64,000 nt of DNA from Spirochaetales bacterium (GTDB taxonomy: Bacteria; Spirochaetota; Spirochaetia; SZUA-6; RPPD01): NCBI GenBank assembly GCA_016929065.1, contig JAFGJO010000028.1:1-64000 (forward strand). The letters run 5' to 3'. The position numbers were made by a program, and so were the translations under genes. This document shows, piece after piece, positions 7,436 through 16,523 of this stretch; within the stretch, counting starts at the first letter, position 1, and each line of letters starts with the position of its first letter. The notes beneath the pieces are model-generated. The model worked only from the letters and a program-made list of their open reading frames with translations, ran no database searches and had not been told where the DNA came from.

Positions 7436-8005
7436 ATGGTGATCATTTTCATTATATTTACAGAACAGGAATTTTCGCGCTTCAAAAACAGGGACAACGG
7501 GGTACTGGAACAGGTATTTCATGAGTACAATGAACGCCTGTTCAATTATCTGGTGATCAAGGTAAACGGGGACACGCATCTCGCAGAAGAATTACTCAGC
7601 GATACATTTCATTCCATAATTGTATCAGCTCCAAAACTCAAGGACAGCAAACGGCTGTATTCATGGATGCTCACCATCGCTGACCGCAGATTCATGGATA
7701 TGCTCCGGAAAAAATACCGCCGTCGCAAACATGAAACCGAAGCAGAACTGGAGCAGGCAGCCGGAAACGTTCACATTGAGAAAGAATATGAAGAAAATGA
7801 AAAAGTCATCATGATGCAGACTGCCATGGAGCAGCTCAAGCCGGTATACAGGGAAATTCTGACATTCAAATATTTTGACAATCTCCCCCAGACGGAAATT
7901 GCCAAAAAGACCGGCAAAACCGAATCATCTGTAGAGAGTCTGCTGTTTCGGGCCCGCAACGCATTAAAAAAACAGCTCGAAAAGATTGCACAGGGCATGG
8001 TATGA
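7436..8005 (+). CDS. ECF-family RNA polymerase sigma factor
   Basis: About 189 residues. Region 2 spans FHEYNERLFNYLVIKVNG through DTFHSIIVSAPKLKDSKRLY, with the -10 recognition helix SWMLTIADRRFMDMLRKK. After an acidic linker, region 4 reads LKPVYREILTFKYFDNLPQTEIAKKTGKTESSVESLLFRAR in outline, a standard helix-turn-helix. The start is uncertain: the promoter at 7403-7431 argues for the ATG at 7436 on a leaderless message. The last four bases overlap the ATG of the FecR-domain gene (ATGA), so the two are translationally coupled and very likely functionally paired. Confidence 0.88.
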   Translation: MVIIFIIFTEQEFSRFKNRDNGVLEQVFHEYNERLFNYLVIKVNGDTHLAEELLSDTFHSIIVSAPKLKDSKRLYSWMLTIADRRFMDMLRKKYRRRKHETEAELEQAAGNVHIEKEYEENEKVIMMQTAMEQLKPVYREILTFKYFDNLPQTEIAKKTGKTESSVESLLFRARNALKKQLEKIAQGMV

Positions 8006-10038
8006 AGCAAAACAAAACCAGATTTGACTGGATCAAACATCTTGATGACCCCGAAATCAACAGATTAATTAAAAAAACCGGAAACCCCCTCCCCTATAAG
8101 GTTCCCGGAGTGCTGAAAACCAGAGTCCTCGGCATGATCGGTTCCGTTGCTGAAATAACGCCGCGGTTTTTCACCCTGCCGCGTCTTGTGATCGCTTCAT
8201 GTGGAACCGCTGCCATTGTCATTGCAATTGTCTTGTCTGGGCTGCTGTATCAGCAAGGCCCCCCGGCCGCTGCTGATCTTGAATGTACGGTCGCTTTTCT
8301 CTCGGGTTCTGCATCAGCACTCCGGCCGGGTGACGCCGCGCCGGTATCCCTCGCTGCGGGAGACCGGGTCATACCGGGGATGACGGTCAGCAGTGACACA
8401 AACGCCTTCCTTGGACTGTCAATTGCCGAGACCGCATCAGTGCTGGTAAAACAGAATTCTGGATTGATGATCGAACAGCTTTCACAGGAAGACTATTCCA
8501 AAGCAATAGTGATGAACCTGGAACAGGGCGCCCTTACTGCTGATGTCTTTGCCCTGGAGAAATCCGGCAGCTTTACGGTCACAACAGATAACCTGACCGC
8601 CGCAGTGCACGGGACGCAATTCAACGTGACCGCGACCGAAAAAAGCTCCGCTGTTTCTGTGCTGAAAGGCGAGGTAACGGTACGGCTTCGATTACCAAAA
8701 GAAACAGAGAAGATTCTCGCAGAACTAAAACCTGCCGAACAGCTGAAAATACAAAACAGCCTTAAACTTGCCGCGACTGTGAAAAACGGAGAACGGCTCG
8801 AACTTCACATCGATGAGCACCGCGGGGCAATTGACCGGATCAATACCATTACAGCCGGTATCAGGGATTCCGCAGCCGATAATCCCGCGTACGCAACTCC
8901 GCCGGATATCCTGTTGGAGTTGAACGTGACAATGAAGCATGCGGTTACCTCACGTTCACTGGACAAGGCTGAAATCGGGCTGTTGACATCAGACATCGCT
9001 GCACTCGGTGTTGGCAAACAGCACCAAAAACCGGACTCGCCGCAAACCGGCGAATCTGTTGACAACACGTCGGAAAAAAACGTAATGACCATTGACACCC
9101 TGACAGAAAATTCCGCCCCTCCACTCATCATCAGCACAGAGGCCTACGAGTACTATGCCAAAGGTCTTCAACTTGAAATTACCAATCCGCGTGACGCATT
9201 GGCATGGTTTGAAAAGGCCTTGAACGAAGAAAAAAAATATACCGATGCGAAAATAAAAATATGCGACATGTATACTCTACTCGGCATGACGGCCAAAGCG
9301 CAGGCACAGCTGCTTGAGATTCTCGGGGAACTGGATAATAAAGGCCAAAAAGAACGTATCGCTGCAGCGTCTGCTTTTTCATCCCTTGCATCGGCCTACA
9401 CACAACAGGGCAATCTTTCGAAGGCAAAAGCATACCTCCTCGAGGCGCAATCAGTTCTGGACAAAATGGGATTAAAGGATACCCTTCCCTACGCTCATGT
9501 GTTAAGGAAACAGGGGGCTGTGTATATTGAGATCCCGGATATCTCAGCTGCAAGAATAGTTCTCCAAAAGGCGCAGCATATCTATTCCGGATTTGGCATG
9601 ACAAACAGCCCTGAAAATATTGAAATTATTGCATTAATGTGTATTATAGACCGACAGGCAGGGAATGTTCAGAAATCTCTCGATTTGTTTCAACAGTCAA
9701 TGGCGGTGACAAACAGCCGGGGTTTAGACAACTCGACGGTATACACGACCGTTGCAATCGCCGGGGTTCCAACCTTGCTGGCTCTTTCCAGAACCACAGA
9801 GGCGCTGCAGGTGCTTGAAAACGCTGACAAGGTATTCAAGAATATGGGGCTTGAATCCACAAAATCCTACGCTGATCTGCTTTTCCTTTTTGGAAGCTAT
9901 TATGAGACAAAGAAAGATCGCCTGAAAGCAGGCTCCCATTACATTGCCGCAAGCGATCTTTATACACAATTGGGGTATACAGGCGCTGCGAAAACCAGGG
10001 TCCGCACGAAGTTGGACCGATTAACCCAACCGGAGTAA
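8002..10038 (+). CDS. FecR-domain, TPR-repeat membrane protein (putative anti-sigma/sensor)
   Basis: 678 residues. Residues 1-60 are cytoplasmic and likely bind the adjacent ECF factor. A single membrane helix lies at 61-83. A FecR domain spans about 95-228 (VAFLSGSASALRPGD, then the repeat-like LEQGALTADV and TDNLTAAVHGTQFNV, VSVLKGEVTV). A spacer follows, and from about residue 380 a run of tetratricopeptide repeats (YYAKGLQLEI, ALAWFEKALNEEK, FSSLASAYTQQGNLSKAKAY, LLFLFGSYYETKKDRLKAGS). FecR domains pass envelope signals to ECF factors. The periplasmic TPR array would then be the part that senses or docks a partner. Gene overlap on the 5' side and a 4-base gap to the next gene make it the centre of a three-gene unit. 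Confidence 0.85.
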   Translation: MKQNKTRFDWIKHLDDPEINRLIKKTGNPLPYKVPGVLKTRVLGMIGSVAEITPRFFTLPRLVIASCGTAAIVIAIVLSGLLYQQGPPAAADLECTVAFLSGSASALRPGDAAPVSLAAGDRVIPGMTVSSDTNAFLGLSIAETASVLVKQNSGLMIEQLSQEDYSKAIVMNLEQGALTADVFALEKSGSFTVTTDNLTAAVHGTQFNVTATEKSSAVSVLKGEVTVRLRLPKETEKILAELKPAEQLKIQNSLKLAATVKNGERLELHIDEHRGAIDRINTITAGIRDSAADNPAYATPPDILLELNVTMKHAVTSRSLDKAEIGLLTSDIAALGVGKQHQKPDSPQTGESVDNTSEKNVMTIDTLTENSAPPLIISTEAYEYYAKGLQLEITNPRDALAWFEKALNEEKKYTDAKIKICDMYTLLGMTAKAQAQLLEILGELDNKGQKERIAAASAFSSLASAYTQQGNLSKAKAYLLEAQSVLDKMGLKDTLPYAHVLRKQGAVYIEIPDISAARIVLQKAQHIYSGFGMTNSPENIEIIALMCIIDRQAGNVQKSLDLFQQSMAVTNSRGLDNSTVYTTVAIAGVPTLLALSRTTEALQVLENADKVFKNMGLESTKSYADLLFLFGSYYETKKDRLKAGSHYIAASDLYTQLGYTGAAKTRVRTKLDRLTQPE

Positions 10039-10042
10039 TATT

Positions 10043-11671
10043 TTGAATTTTCAATATATTTCACGATGCATCCTTTTTATTTTATTTGGAATGATTCTTG
10101 GGAACCTGGCATTTTCTGATCAGGATAAAATCATTGTTGCAGATTTTCTGATCCAAACCGAAAACCCTTCATTCAAAAATCTCGGCAAGGGATTTGCCGA
10201 GTTCATCGCCGTCAAACTCGCTTCATCAGGAGATATTCTGGTTGTGGACCGTGCCGAGAGAAATAAGGCATTAAAGAAACTTGAGATAAATCTTACGGGA
10301 ATCATGAATGAACCCATCCAATTCCTGCTGGGAGAACAGCTCGGAGCACAATATCTGGTACGCGGCACCATCGTCGACAGGGAAAACCTTGAAGTAACCG
10401 TCGAACTGCTCGATATACACAAGCGCACAATTATTTTTACGACCCAGGTACATGCATCTCCGGGAGCATATGAATATATTGCCGCGGCGATTGCCGGAAG
10501 AATACTGCAGCATCTGGAATTAAGCAAAACTGAAACCACTGCTGAAAATGAAAATCCGCCCGAGGAATTTCCCGAAGAGGCTGCAAAACGCTTCTCCGAT
10601 GCAGTCGACGACCTGGATAAAAAAGACACCGAAAGCGCTGCCCGGAATCTGGCAGAGGCCTCAAGGCTTGATCCTGAAAATGAAGCGATTAAAACGTATC
10701 TCGCCAGCCTTATGGTCAATACGGCAAAATTCAATTTCCTGAGCAATCACTATCTCCCGAAAAACAATCCCGCGTATTTGGGCATCATCCATGCCGATGA
10801 GATTTCTGCATCTGCAATAATAAACTCACCATACATTGCCGGAATCATTCAGGGCTCATCTGAAGTTTCAGCATTAGTATCGATGGGATTTTGCTTCCCT
10901 GTCGGAGACCGTTTCGGCATCGGGCTTGAGACGCTCACTCCGTCTATGATGAGCAACTCAGTATGGGATGAAGATACTTCCTTCAATGCGCTTCTTTCTT
11001 ATACCAGCTGGGGCGGAATCGCAAGCTTCGGCTGGACAGTGACCGATCATATTTCTTTAGGAACATCGCTATCGGTTTTTTATCAGTACAAACATTCATA
11101 TCTGGATTCACCAGCTACCGGCATTGTCGAGTTAAATAATAAATTCACAACGTTTGCACTTACCGCCGGCATGGTATTCAGGAATAAGGATGATTCGTTT
11201 CTCTATGACCTCCTTATCGGGTATCCCTTTGTCAGCCTTTTTTATGCTTATCTCGAGAACGAAACATCTGACGATATCAGCTCACCAGTCTCTGTCAACA
11301 ATACGCTCACCTGGGCCTTCAATGACAGAACCCTGTTTTTGATTTTCAAACAGCTGAATGGCATTACCCTGAGCCGGTTTAATTATGTTACCGAACTGTT
11401 GGCAGCAGTTGAGGTTTGGCCGGCTGACTGGCTGTCATTTCAGCTTTCTGCAGAGGTGTCTGCGAGTCTTTTTGAAGGACGATTCCAGGGCGGGTTCGGC
11501 GGGAAAGCCGGGATAACCCTCCGCATCCCCGGCACCGGCTGGGGAGGCTGGGATTTTGAATTTACGGTCGCCTACCGGAAACGCCCCTCCTCAATAGCAG
11601 TAAAGATGTTTTATGATGACTTTATTTTATCTCTCAGCATCTCCAAATCCGGCAGCTTTATAATCCGTTAA
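10043..11671 (+). CDS. Outer-membrane protein with CsgG/FlgO-like domain plus beta-barrel
   Basis: 542 residues, starting at a TTG preceded by cggag at a good distance. Signal peptide 1-25 (ends LAFSD). Residues 28-155 resemble the TolB-N/CsgG-like fold of FlgO and LpoB (IIVADFLIQTENPSFKNLGKG, SSGDILVVDRAE, LGAQYLVRGTIVDRE, VTVELLDIHKRTIIF). Residues 180-225 are a charged helix pair. From about 235 to the end the chain alternates amphipathic strands (GRFQGGFGGKAGITLRI, WDFEFTVAYRK, FILSLSISKSGSFIIR), consistent with a C-terminal barrel. It follows the FecR/TPR gene by 4 bases and is the probable envelope output of that ECF unit. A stem CGCAGG/CCTGCG at 11685-11708 lies just after it and lacks a T run. 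Confidence 0.72.
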   Translation: MNFQYISRCILFILFGMILGNLAFSDQDKIIVADFLIQTENPSFKNLGKGFAEFIAVKLASSGDILVVDRAERNKALKKLEINLTGIMNEPIQFLLGEQLGAQYLVRGTIVDRENLEVTVELLDIHKRTIIFTTQVHASPGAYEYIAAAIAGRILQHLELSKTETTAENENPPEEFPEEAAKRFSDAVDDLDKKDTESAARNLAEASRLDPENEAIKTYLASLMVNTAKFNFLSNHYLPKNNPAYLGIIHADEISASAIINSPYIAGIIQGSSEVSALVSMGFCFPVGDRFGIGLETLTPSMMSNSVWDEDTSFNALLSYTSWGGIASFGWTVTDHISLGTSLSVFYQYKHSYLDSPATGIVELNNKFTTFALTAGMVFRNKDDSFLYDLLIGYPFVSLFYAYLENETSDDISSPVSVNNTLTWAFNDRTLFLIFKQLNGITLSRFNYVTELLAAVEVWPADWLSFQLSAEVSASLFEGRFQGGFGGKAGITLRIPGTGWGGWDFEFTVAYRKRPSSIAVKMFYDDFILSLSISKSGSFIIR

Positions 11672-11762
11672 TTTTTTAATAAAACGCAGGAAATTTAATT
11701 CCCCTGCGACTCTATAAACAAACAGGAGGCAAAAAAAACCTGTAATGTTTAAGGAGTTGAAA

Positions 11763-13124
11763 ATGAACAAAATCAGAAAATCAAAATGGGCATGGCTTTT
11801 GGGGCTCGGATTAATCGCTTCCCTGCTCGTGTTTAACTGTGATGCGCCAGGAGCAGGCCCGGAGGACCCGGACACGCTGGAAGTAAGCCTTGCAGAAGGC
11901 ACCTACTATGCAATGCAGGATATCGAGATCACTGTTCCTGAAGCGGGTGCAACAGTGCGTTATACCACAAACGGCACCGAACCGACCGAAGTATCAGGAG
12001 AATTGTACACCGGTCCGATTACCATCGCATATACCTGTGAGTTTACCGCGGTTGCATTCAAAGACGGCGCAGAGATTGCCCGCTGCCACAACAACTATAC
12101 ACTCCCGCTTGTTGTCAGCGCGGGCAGTTATTCAAACGGCGTACGCTTCAATCCTTGCTTCTGGCTGGAAGGAATACGGTATGATCTCCCGGTTGCAGAC
12201 GGCTATGAAGCAAACGCCTTCCGGTCTGTTCCCTATGCAGGAAAAATCTATACCGTGGGCAGTCTTTCCTCAATCGACGGCGAGTATACAACGCATGCAT
12301 GCTACTGGATCAATCAGACACTCGTTGATCTTGATGATGAAGGCGGTATCAGTAATGCGTATGGTATTGCCATCGATAAAACTGACGGGACGGTATATAC
12401 CGCGGGTATATATCAGACCGGAACCGGCGAAGATGAATACAGAACTGCCTGCTACTGGAGAAATACCGAACGGATCGACCTCCCTTCCGGCACAGAAGGC
12501 TATGCCGCTGCAGCAGGAATTTGTTTATACAACGGCACCGTATATACTTCCGGCCTGTATCAGATTGCAGAAGATATTGTCTTACCCTGCTTCTGGATCG
12601 GCACAACCCGGCAGGATCTTCCCGGGTATGCGTACTATCCCGTATATCCTGATCCTGAACCGGCCCTCTGGTTTCCTCCCGGAAATGCATGGTCAATTAC
12701 TGTTGCAGATGACACAGTATATTGCGGCGGTTCGGTGAAAAACATCGCAACCGGTCTGATGGGCGCCTGTTACTGGGAACAAACCCTGCGGCATGATCTG
12801 GATTCAGAAAGTTTTGAAAATTCGATGGGATACCAGATATATGTTAATGGCTCGGATGTGTACCTTGCCGGTGGCTATTCCGATGGTGAATACGGGTATT
12901 CCTGCTACTGGAAAAATGGTTCACTGGTCACCCTTCCCGGACAAAATCCCGGTGCCGTTATGGCAACAGACTTGTGCGTCAGCAAGGGGAAAGTATATAC
13001 CGCCGGGGCGTATCATGACGGTTCAAAACTGGTTCCCTGCTACTGGATTGACAGCATCCGTCATGATCTTTACGGAGATGGAGTACATTCCGCATGGGTG
13101 TACTCGATTTATCTTGAAGAATAA
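11763..13124 (+). CDS. Lipoprotein with chitobiase-C-like domain and seven C-[YF]-W repeats
   Basis: 453 residues from the ATG at 11763, preceded by aaggag (the upstream in-frame ATG at 11745 has none). Lipobox LLVFNC, Cys26. Residues 40-110 match the CHB_HEX_C_1/FN3-like module (AGATVRYTTNGTEPTEVSGE, then FTAVAFKDG). The remainder holds seven units, each with a Cys-Tyr/Phe-Trp followed by a turn and 'r.DLp' and then 'VYTaG.y' (CFWLEG, CYWINQ, CYWRNT, CFWIGT, CYWEQT, CYWKNG, CYWIDS). Seven units of beta-strand character suggest a seven-bladed propeller. The layout resembles the lipoprotein at 15289-16368. It may be co-transcribed with the upstream barrel gene. Confidence 0.75.
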   Translation: MNKIRKSKWAWLLGLGLIASLLVFNCDAPGAGPEDPDTLEVSLAEGTYYAMQDIEITVPEAGATVRYTTNGTEPTEVSGELYTGPITIAYTCEFTAVAFKDGAEIARCHNNYTLPLVVSAGSYSNGVRFNPCFWLEGIRYDLPVADGYEANAFRSVPYAGKIYTVGSLSSIDGEYTTHACYWINQTLVDLDDEGGISNAYGIAIDKTDGTVYTAGIYQTGTGEDEYRTACYWRNTERIDLPSGTEGYAAAAGICLYNGTVYTSGLYQIAEDIVLPCFWIGTTRQDLPGYAYYPVYPDPEPALWFPPGNAWSITVADDTVYCGGSVKNIATGLMGACYWEQTLRHDLDSESFENSMGYQIYVNGSDVYLAGGYSDGEYGYSCYWKNGSLVTLPGQNPGAVMATDLCVSKGKVYTAGAYHDGSKLVPCYWIDSIRHDLYGDGVHSAWVYSIYLEE

Positions 13125-15288: not shown

Positions 15289-16368
15289 CTATTTGCTTAT
15301 AATCACCAGACTATTAATTTGGGAAGATTTTGCAGGATCAATTCTGCTGAGGCCATGCCATGCCCCGTTTCTCCAGTACCCGGGGACTTGAACATCTGAA
15401 GAATTCATACTGTACCCCGCAGCATAGACAATTGATCCTGATACCACCAAATCATTTACCACTGAAGATTTTGTCGCATCAAGCGGAGCAAGTCCTTGCC
15501 ATAGCCCGTTTTTCCAAAAACCAGCAACAACAACACCCGATGTATTCATACTATAACCTGATACATAGATATCTTCTTCCAATACCCGAACAGTCTTGGC
15601 ATATGAATTTTTTGTTGCATCAAGTAAGGAAAGACCGTTCCAGGCCCCGTTTAACCAATACCCGGGAACCAAAACATCTGATGAATTATAACCATATCCG
15701 GAACCATAGACATCTGTACCAGACACTACCAAACCGGTAATTGCAGCGTTTTTTGCCGGATCAAGCGGAGAAAGCCCGTTCCACACCCCGTTGAACCAAT
15801 ATCCGGGAACTTGAATATCAGAGGCATTCGTCGAGTACCCTGCAACGTATACATCAGTACCTGATACCACCAGGCTGGACACATAGGAGTGTTTGGCAGC
15901 ATCAAGCGGAGGAAGCCCGTTCCAAACTCCGTTTAACCAATATCCGGGAACTTGAATATCAGAGGCATTCGTGGAATATCCTGCAGCGTATACATCTGTA
16001 TCTGACACCACCAGACTGAAAACATAGGAATGTCTGGTAACATCAAGCGGGGGAAGCCCATTCCAAACTCCATTCAGCCAGTAGCCGGGCACAAAGACAT
16101 TTGAAGAATTAACACAAAACCCGGCGACATAGATATCAGTTCCCGATACAACCAGACTTCTGACGAAATTATTTTTTGTTTCATCAAGTGCAGGAAGCTC
16201 ATTCCAGACACCGTTCAGCCAATATCCGGGGATATAGACATCTGAGGCATTCGTGGAGTAACCTGCAGCATATACATCATTGGTTTCAGTAACGGGTACA
16301 GAGCAGCTTATAATTATACTCACCAGCATTGCACCAGGACAGATCTTGAACAGATTCCAAAACTTCAT
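15289..16368 (-). CDS. Lipoprotein built of seven exact 47-residue repeats
   Basis: 359 residues from the ATG at 16368 (aaaggagcaaga before it). Signal peptide with lipobox SIIISC, Cys22. Residues 31-359 are exactly seven units of 47 residues with no insertion or deletion. Each unit has the outline [DI]-[VI]-Y-x-x-G-[YF], then a Ser/Asn turn, then V-P-G-Y-W-x-N-G-x-W-x-x-L, then D-x-[TA]-K and a hydrophobic strand (VVSGT). Four short strands per unit and seven units fit a seven-bladed beta-propeller held on the outer or surface membrane. It is related in design, though not closely in sequence, to the lipoprotein at 11763-13124. Function unknown. The last unit ends the protein without the usual velcro strand. 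Confidence 0.82.
   Translation of the reverse strand: MKFWNLFKICPGAMLVSIIISCSVPVTETNDVYAAGYSTNASDVYIPGYWLNGVWNELPALDETKNNFVRSLVVSGTDIYVAGFCVNSSNVFVPGYWLNGVWNGLPPLDVTRHSYVFSLVVSDTDVYAAGYSTNASDIQVPGYWLNGVWNGLPPLDAAKHSYVSSLVVSGTDVYVAGYSTNASDIQVPGYWFNGVWNGLSPLDPAKNAAITGLVVSGTDVYGSGYGYNSSDVLVPGYWLNGAWNGLSLLDATKNSYAKTVRVLEEDIYVSGYSMNTSGVVVAGFWKNGLWQGLAPLDATKSSVVNDLVVSGSIVYAAGYSMNSSDVQVPGYWRNGAWHGLSRIDPAKSSQINSLVIISK
15292..16278 (-). repeat. Seven tandem 141-bp coding repeats
   Basis: The 987 bases encode seven in-register 47-codon units. Units 3 and 4 (about 15715-15996) are the most alike at DNA level, sharing phrases such as aatatccgggaacttgaata. The outer units have drifted. The tract is a good substrate for recombination that adds or removes whole blades. 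Confidence 0.85.
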
Positions 16369-16523
16369 TCTCTTGCTCCTTTTTTTTTCATCATCAAATA
16401 ATAATACCATAATTCTTTTTATTTCACAATATAAATAGATTAAATGCAACCGGTTACGATTCACTCAACAGTCCTCCTGTTCTCACTCCAGACAAACACG
16501 TATTACATAAAATAAAAATCAAT

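Follow-up and report, generated by a model that had tools for sequence, protein, structure and literature searches.

The nearest named relatives of the protein family described here are the HAF repeats and the Kelch repeats. The strands of a Kelch blade are named A to D, the Kelch_1 definition includes a double glycine that closes strand B, and many Kelch domains are six-bladed. Kelch propellers (PF01344; e.g. Keap1 and SAKe) share with the present protein, L001, the register, the Y and W positions and the fold. They differ in the double glycine: it is missing at the end of strand B in all seven L001 units, each of which has a single glycine there (AG or SG), and L001 stays below the Kelch_1 cut-off. 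The HAF repeat (TIGR02913) has a similar unit plan; its model, however, covers 39 positions, whereas an L001 unit has 47 residues, and the HAF motif stands where L001 has GYW.

Lipid-anchored propellers are also described from the cell surface, e.g. BtuG, which is termed seven-bladed (PMC6143338, PMC10404256). On the origin of such folds, the main text of Pereira and Lupas (2022, PMC9218822) presents propellers as continuously re-amplified from single blades. Blade numbers are described there as scattering around the preferred value of a family, with no known counting system. The same main text contains no word starting with Spirochaet or HAF.

L001 is encoded in the window, a stretch of 64,000 nucleotides from a Spirochaetales bacterium (assembly GCA_016929065.1, contig JAFGJO010000028.1, positions 1 to 64,000).

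The window gene, its unit array and its predicted fold

The original prediction placed the gene at 15289–16368, which is right; its strand is minus, with an ATG start at 16368 (Table 1). A plus-strand reading of the interval contains many stops and was discarded. By its lipobox the product is a predicted bacterial lipoprotein: IIIS-C22 follows a hydrophobic signal, and Cys22 would be acylated.

Residues 31–359 are exactly 7 × 47 residues with no insertion or deletion, as had been claimed. Self-identity at a lag of 47 is 0.60 (170/282), whereas 10,000 shufflings of these residues never exceed 0.14, and the elements Y-x-x-G-[YF], G-[YF]-W-x-N-G-x-W-x-x-L and D recur in 7/7 units, again as first described. 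Protein identity between units has a median of 55% (range 47–79%). Aligned as 141-bp units, the DNA is 58–81% identical between pairs. The middle units had been thought the most alike; units 3 and 4 are indeed the closest (80.9%), but the similar block consists of units 1–4 (mutual identity 62–81%) and not of a symmetric middle, with units 5–7 at 58–65% against the rest. Tandem Repeats Finder reports just 2.3 copies of period 141, at 15760–16089. The longest identical run between position-matched units is 38 bp, which makes it unlikely that the assembly collapsed or expanded the array.

Table 1. Positions of the family genes in the window and of the sequence features of L001
Feature	Coordinates	Strand	Basis
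Second family member: lipobox-like start, CHB_HEX_C / Fn3-like stalk, seven blade units	11745..13124	+	
L001 coding sequence: 359 aa, propeller of seven units with a lipid anchor (fold and anchor predicted)	15289..16368	-	
GGAGC, ribosome-binding-site-like, ~6 nt before the L001 ATG	16375..16379	-	read from sequence
L001 signal peptide and lipobox, residues 1–22 (...VSIIIS-Cys22)	16303..16368	-	translation and lipobox-like pattern
Unit 1, residues 31–77	16138..16278	-	
Unit 2, residues 78–124	15997..16137	-	
Unit 3, residues 125–171	15856..15996	-	
Unit 4, residues 172–218	15715..15855	-	
Unit 5, residues 219–265	15574..15714	-	
Unit 6, residues 266–312	15433..15573	-	
Unit 7, residues 313–359, reaches the stop codon	15292..15432	-	
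38-bp stretch in unit 3 that recurs identically in unit 4, probably a local conversion tract	15935..15972	-	
38-bp stretch in unit 4, identical to unit 3	15794..15831	-	

AlphaFold2 with a four-row alignment gives an L001 model with pLDDT 95.4, pTM 0.90 and 28 strands (7 × 4). The rows are mature L001, L021, L022 and the propeller of the 11745–13124 gene, two of them from this window. AlphaFold2 on the L001 sequence alone gives a poor model (pLDDT 50.1), so the confident model depends on the four rows, and the Foldseek matches of the single-sequence model were set aside. The predicted domains are seven four-stranded units and nothing else.

Structural neighbours of the confident model were ranked by VIA-align over Foldseek's best 1000 chains. 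Propellers rank first, with Z-scores of 20–29 over 226–296 residues, and CylK is at the top (Z 29.0, 295 residues aligned, rmsd 3.0). Others include mLST8 (Z 23.5), a periplasmic gluconolactonase (Z 22.8), lactonase-type propellers (Z 21–23), BtuG1 (Z 20.7–21.4) and the Photorhabdus PLL lectins (Z 20–21). The CylK, mLST8, BtuG and PLL chains are seven-bladed. Ordered by Foldseek E-value, Kelch domains come out on top, and the TM-scores against single PDB chains are 0.42–0.49, query-normalised, among the best 50 matches listed. BtuG and the PLL lectins resemble L001 in propeller fold, at Z about 20–21, but differ in sequence (8–12% identity); the likeness seen is one of fold only.

The original prediction of a seven-bladed propeller is strongly supported by structure prediction, both by the strands falling into seven fours at high pLDDT and by propellers being the best structural matches. 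Judged from the model, L001 is very probably a lipid-anchored seven-bladed beta-propeller. A closed ring would fit the pTM value and the alignments, which span nearly the whole chain. The fold itself is ordinary.

Unit number and blade history in the family

Relatives were sought in genome collections with one genome per species. Profile A1 matches 30/297 genomes of the class at E 1e-10 and 28/394 at 1e-20; in another phylum it matches 1/198 genomes, that one being the search centre. The nearest named relative is in a Spirochaetales MAG, of the same order as the window genome. No relatives were found in plasmids or phages, and in viral contigs one query gives a single weak locus and three other queries none. 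In the mostly open-access literature on spirochaete propeller lipoproteins and HAF repeats, no title describes the family.

Unit number was counted in 41 closed ORFs with blade matches, after removal of exact duplicates and contained ORFs and with the control loci L069–L110 skipped. With a blade model derived from family members, on which the counts lean without the number being forced, and at permissive thresholds (domain E up to 5), seven units are found in 32 ORFs, 14 in one, six in two and eight in one. The remaining 5/41 have one to four units, in frames that are short or weak. Both six-unit members have gaps of at least one blade length (spacing 91 in L040; spacing 123 in L008, where the frame is disrupted), and in the eight-unit member one blade match is under 3 bits. 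Free variation of the repeat count among relatives, named at the outset as the result that would speak against a fixed seven, was sought in these ORFs and not seen. Uniform spacing of 47 is seen in 2/36 members, L001 and L111.

The family plan is, as a rule, a lipid anchor, a variable stalk and a C-terminal propeller. A lipobox-like pattern lies ahead of the propeller in 32/36 members, and in these 32 the linker from the cysteine to the first blade has 5 to 430 residues (~9 in L001). The propeller is C-terminal in 36/36, with the last blade match at most 33 residues from the C-terminus. In relatives, the stalks carry Ig-like domains or similar ones (aBig_2, Big_2, CHB_HEX_C, Flg_new, DUF4842).

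The second family gene of the window, the only other member found in its genome, lies 2.2 kb from L001 on the opposite strand and is more diverged. A cysteine stands ahead of [YF]-W in 7/7 of its units. A cysteine directly before Y-W (column 18) occurs in six or seven blades of L006, L017, L030, L034 and the 11745–13124 member; from their sequences, a ring of about seven cysteines is possible in these proteins. Stop-codon-disrupted copies of the family are L118 (G001, contig 7) and L008, and same-strand adjacent gene pairs are found at L062:3110-6561 and L068:5462-8863.

Blade orthology was examined in 35 seven-unit proteins (three of them open-ended) by comparing position-matched blades with all 5040 permutations for each pair of proteins; 10 of 595 pairs had too many gaps and were dropped. 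The permutation fraction is ≤0.01 in 14/585 pairs, with ~6 expected by chance, a result that supersedes an earlier, smaller test (4/136 pairs). Clear blade orthology is found among proteins with diverged blades: L006/L028, L010/L012/L037, L029/L033, L009/L062 and L011/L041. L009/L062 is one of the adjacent pairs and keeps blade-by-blade orthology, so local gene duplication occurs too. L001 and its nearest relative L005 have no clear orthology (matched blades 0.50, permuted 0.48, fraction 0.11), and other symmetric pairs are similar (L030/L119, 0.51 vs 0.51; L031/L113, 0.47 vs 0.48). L001/L029 gives a weak signal (fraction 0.012), which counts against complete loss.

The best match of 245 blades is in the same protein for 64, in another protein at the same position for 84, at another position for 93, and absent for 4. 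Six of the seven L001 blades find their best match within L001. Since symmetric members are without blade orthology and diverged members retain it, the blades appear to have undergone re-amplification or homogenisation with the count staying at seven. The most homogenised column is 18 (within 0.73, between 0.25), then columns 25 and 8, in a comparison of 15/17 proteins that leaves out the near-duplicates L028 and L033. The idea that homogenised positions mark ligand loops found no support: the top columns are in strands, and loops are less homogenised.

Silent differences between L001 units have a median proportion of 0.66, and 0/21 pairs are under 0.3; replacement differences have a median proportion of 0.26. 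The array is therefore old and under purifying selection, and for the full array the earlier suggestion of recent duplication is not supported at these nearly saturated silent sites. Gene conversion, suggested as the other possibility, does find local support in units 3 and 4, where the 38-bp identical run is improbable under a codon-phase shuffle (p = 0.00075). A weaker tract joins units 3 and 5 (p ~0.04, without correction).

There is close to an even chance that the seven blades date from the ancestor and that repeated gene conversion (concerted evolution), not new amplification, has since kept them similar. The tract in units 3/4, the unclear orthology of L001 and L005 and the constancy of the count all favour this history. 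A clear tract is present in one unit pair only, however, and re-amplification followed by trimming to seven looks identical at such distance.

It is very unlikely that the L001 array is a recent amplification, with one blade copied to seven and the number still drifting. High internal identity without indels, best matches inside L001 for 6/7 units and the identical run in units 3/4 would suit such an origin, but near-saturation of silent sites and the absence of free variation in the relatives' unit count argue against it. Uniform spacing of 47 alone is no sign of recent origin, because L111, which belongs to a different family of the class, has a spacing of 47 × 6 and silent differences of 0.78. 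Recent amplification is known within the family: the minimum silent difference is 0.03 in L113, which has seven units, and 0.10 in L117, from the same genome. L117:3158-5182 is a 675-aa frame with 14 regular units, and 27/91 of its unit pairs have silent differences <0.3. Its units seven apart are not more alike (0.61 at lags 1, 6, 7 and 8).

The propellers described in the main text of PMC9218822 resemble the L001 family in that blades within a protein are more alike than to relatives, homology lies at the level of the blade and not of the propeller, and counts of 7 and 14 occur. They differ in median blade identity, which is >60% in that set, a criterion that L001, at 55%, falls below. They also include many larger and smaller counts, whereas the L001 family has almost only seven. 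The family fits the re-amplification cycle, with a number tighter than in that set.

Relation to HAF and Kelch repeats

No Pfam or NCBIfam model passes its cut-off on the L001 propeller. Matches to PsaL, Rubella_E2 and Kelch_FKB95 are sub-threshold and were rejected, as were PHROGs matches, which are partial (16–30 residues) and without function. Whole-protein hhalign comparisons with HAF, Kelch and WD40 proteins were also set aside, being weak and partly due to signal peptides. In the window genome, Kelch_1 matches are found solely on contigs 18 and 65; there are 39 WD40 matches genome-wide, and contigs 44, 50 and 52 carry many WD40 repeats in large frames.

A sister-group relation to the HAF-repeat propellers is plausible, if somewhat short of an even chance. 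The blade model scores 4/5 HAF proteins at 17–27 bits, in one search direction, above a best shuffle of 11.1 bits (264 of 440 shuffles had a reported score), and it places 0/11 Kelch_1 and 0/6 WD40 proteins of the class above that shuffle. The whole-protein comparison, however, is weak, the curated cut-off of TIGR02913 is reached in 0/61 genomes (that of L001 and those of relatives), and among solved structures it is Kelch chains that the family profile matched.

These chains raise the question of whether L001 is a true Kelch-repeat protein, which we regard as unlikely. A profile of eight family members matches solved Kelch chains in the same register at E 1e-7 to 1e-4, including the designed SAKe (E 1e-7) and Keap1 (E 3e-6 over the chain and 0.0035 at the best single stretch). 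Scores to the designed chains are inflated because such chains are internally symmetric. The family Y-x-x-G aligns on the Kelch strand that bears the double glycine, so that strand plan, register and the Y and W positions agree, and sub-threshold matches to Kelch_FKB95 and Kelch_2 point the same way. Against this stand the lack of a Kelch_1 match, the double glycine missing from seven units and the failure of the blade model to raise any of the 11 spirochaete Kelch_1 proteins above shuffles. A search with the L001 sequence alone matched no solved Kelch domain.

Proposed model, location and significance

L001 is probably an exported, lipid-anchored single seven-bladed propeller, its blades re-amplified or homogenised and its count seven. 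The mature propeller would be held near the membrane by its short linker. In the Kelch register, each 47-residue unit would comprise strands B-C-D and strand A of the next blade; the chain would then run B-first and A-last, so that the final strand would complete the first blade (1+3 closure). More tentatively, L001 may be a binding head of the envelope, one face of which would bind a ligand or protein partner as in other propeller lipoproteins and lectins. Relatives would present the same head on stalks of varied length. After the split from its nearest relatives, the L001 blades would have been re-amplified or homogenised under purifying selection, with ring closure holding the count at seven.

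The constant plan of anchor, variable stalk and terminal propeller points to a binding head in the envelope, and suggests the surface more than the periplasm. Neither a ligand nor a partner nor a conserved neighbouring gene was found for L001. Its flanks encode MarC, a class II aldolase, a flavin reductase, transketolase halves and an IlvD-type dehydratase, and no transporter gene adjoins it among the eight neighbours scanned. The neighbours are of ordinary metabolic or membrane type and give no functional lead. Elsewhere in the window, a FecR plus TPR protein (8002–10038, plus strand) is followed by a 542-aa exported-looking protein with no Pfam match (10043–11671, plus strand).

A periplasmic scaffold in place of a surface head is rather unlikely. 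In its favour, only about 9 residues link Cys22 to the first strand, and a propeller lipoprotein such as BamB can face the periplasm; the Ig-like stalks of 80–430 residues in relatives, however, suit display away from the membrane. An enzymatic role of the lactonase or CylK kind is highly improbable for L001: these propellers have the highest Z-scores, but identity is 8–12%, the fold alone is common, and the near-equal units show no obvious blade-specific conserved residues of active-site type.

The part that is moderately worth following is the fixed count despite lost blade orthology. One tentative explanation, which we hold to be possible though less probable than its opposite, is blade turnover at a fixed number, in which blades are independently re-amplified or homogenised in several lineages and closure alone selects seven or 14. 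If true, 14 units would be two rings, and no counting in the DNA would be needed. L113 (seven units) and L117 (14), recently amplified in one genome, would then show this selection acting. The family offers a clean comparative set for how strictly closure sets blade number, and a spirochaete family without a Pfam or NCBIfam model above cut-off gains a predicted fold and a likely location in the envelope.
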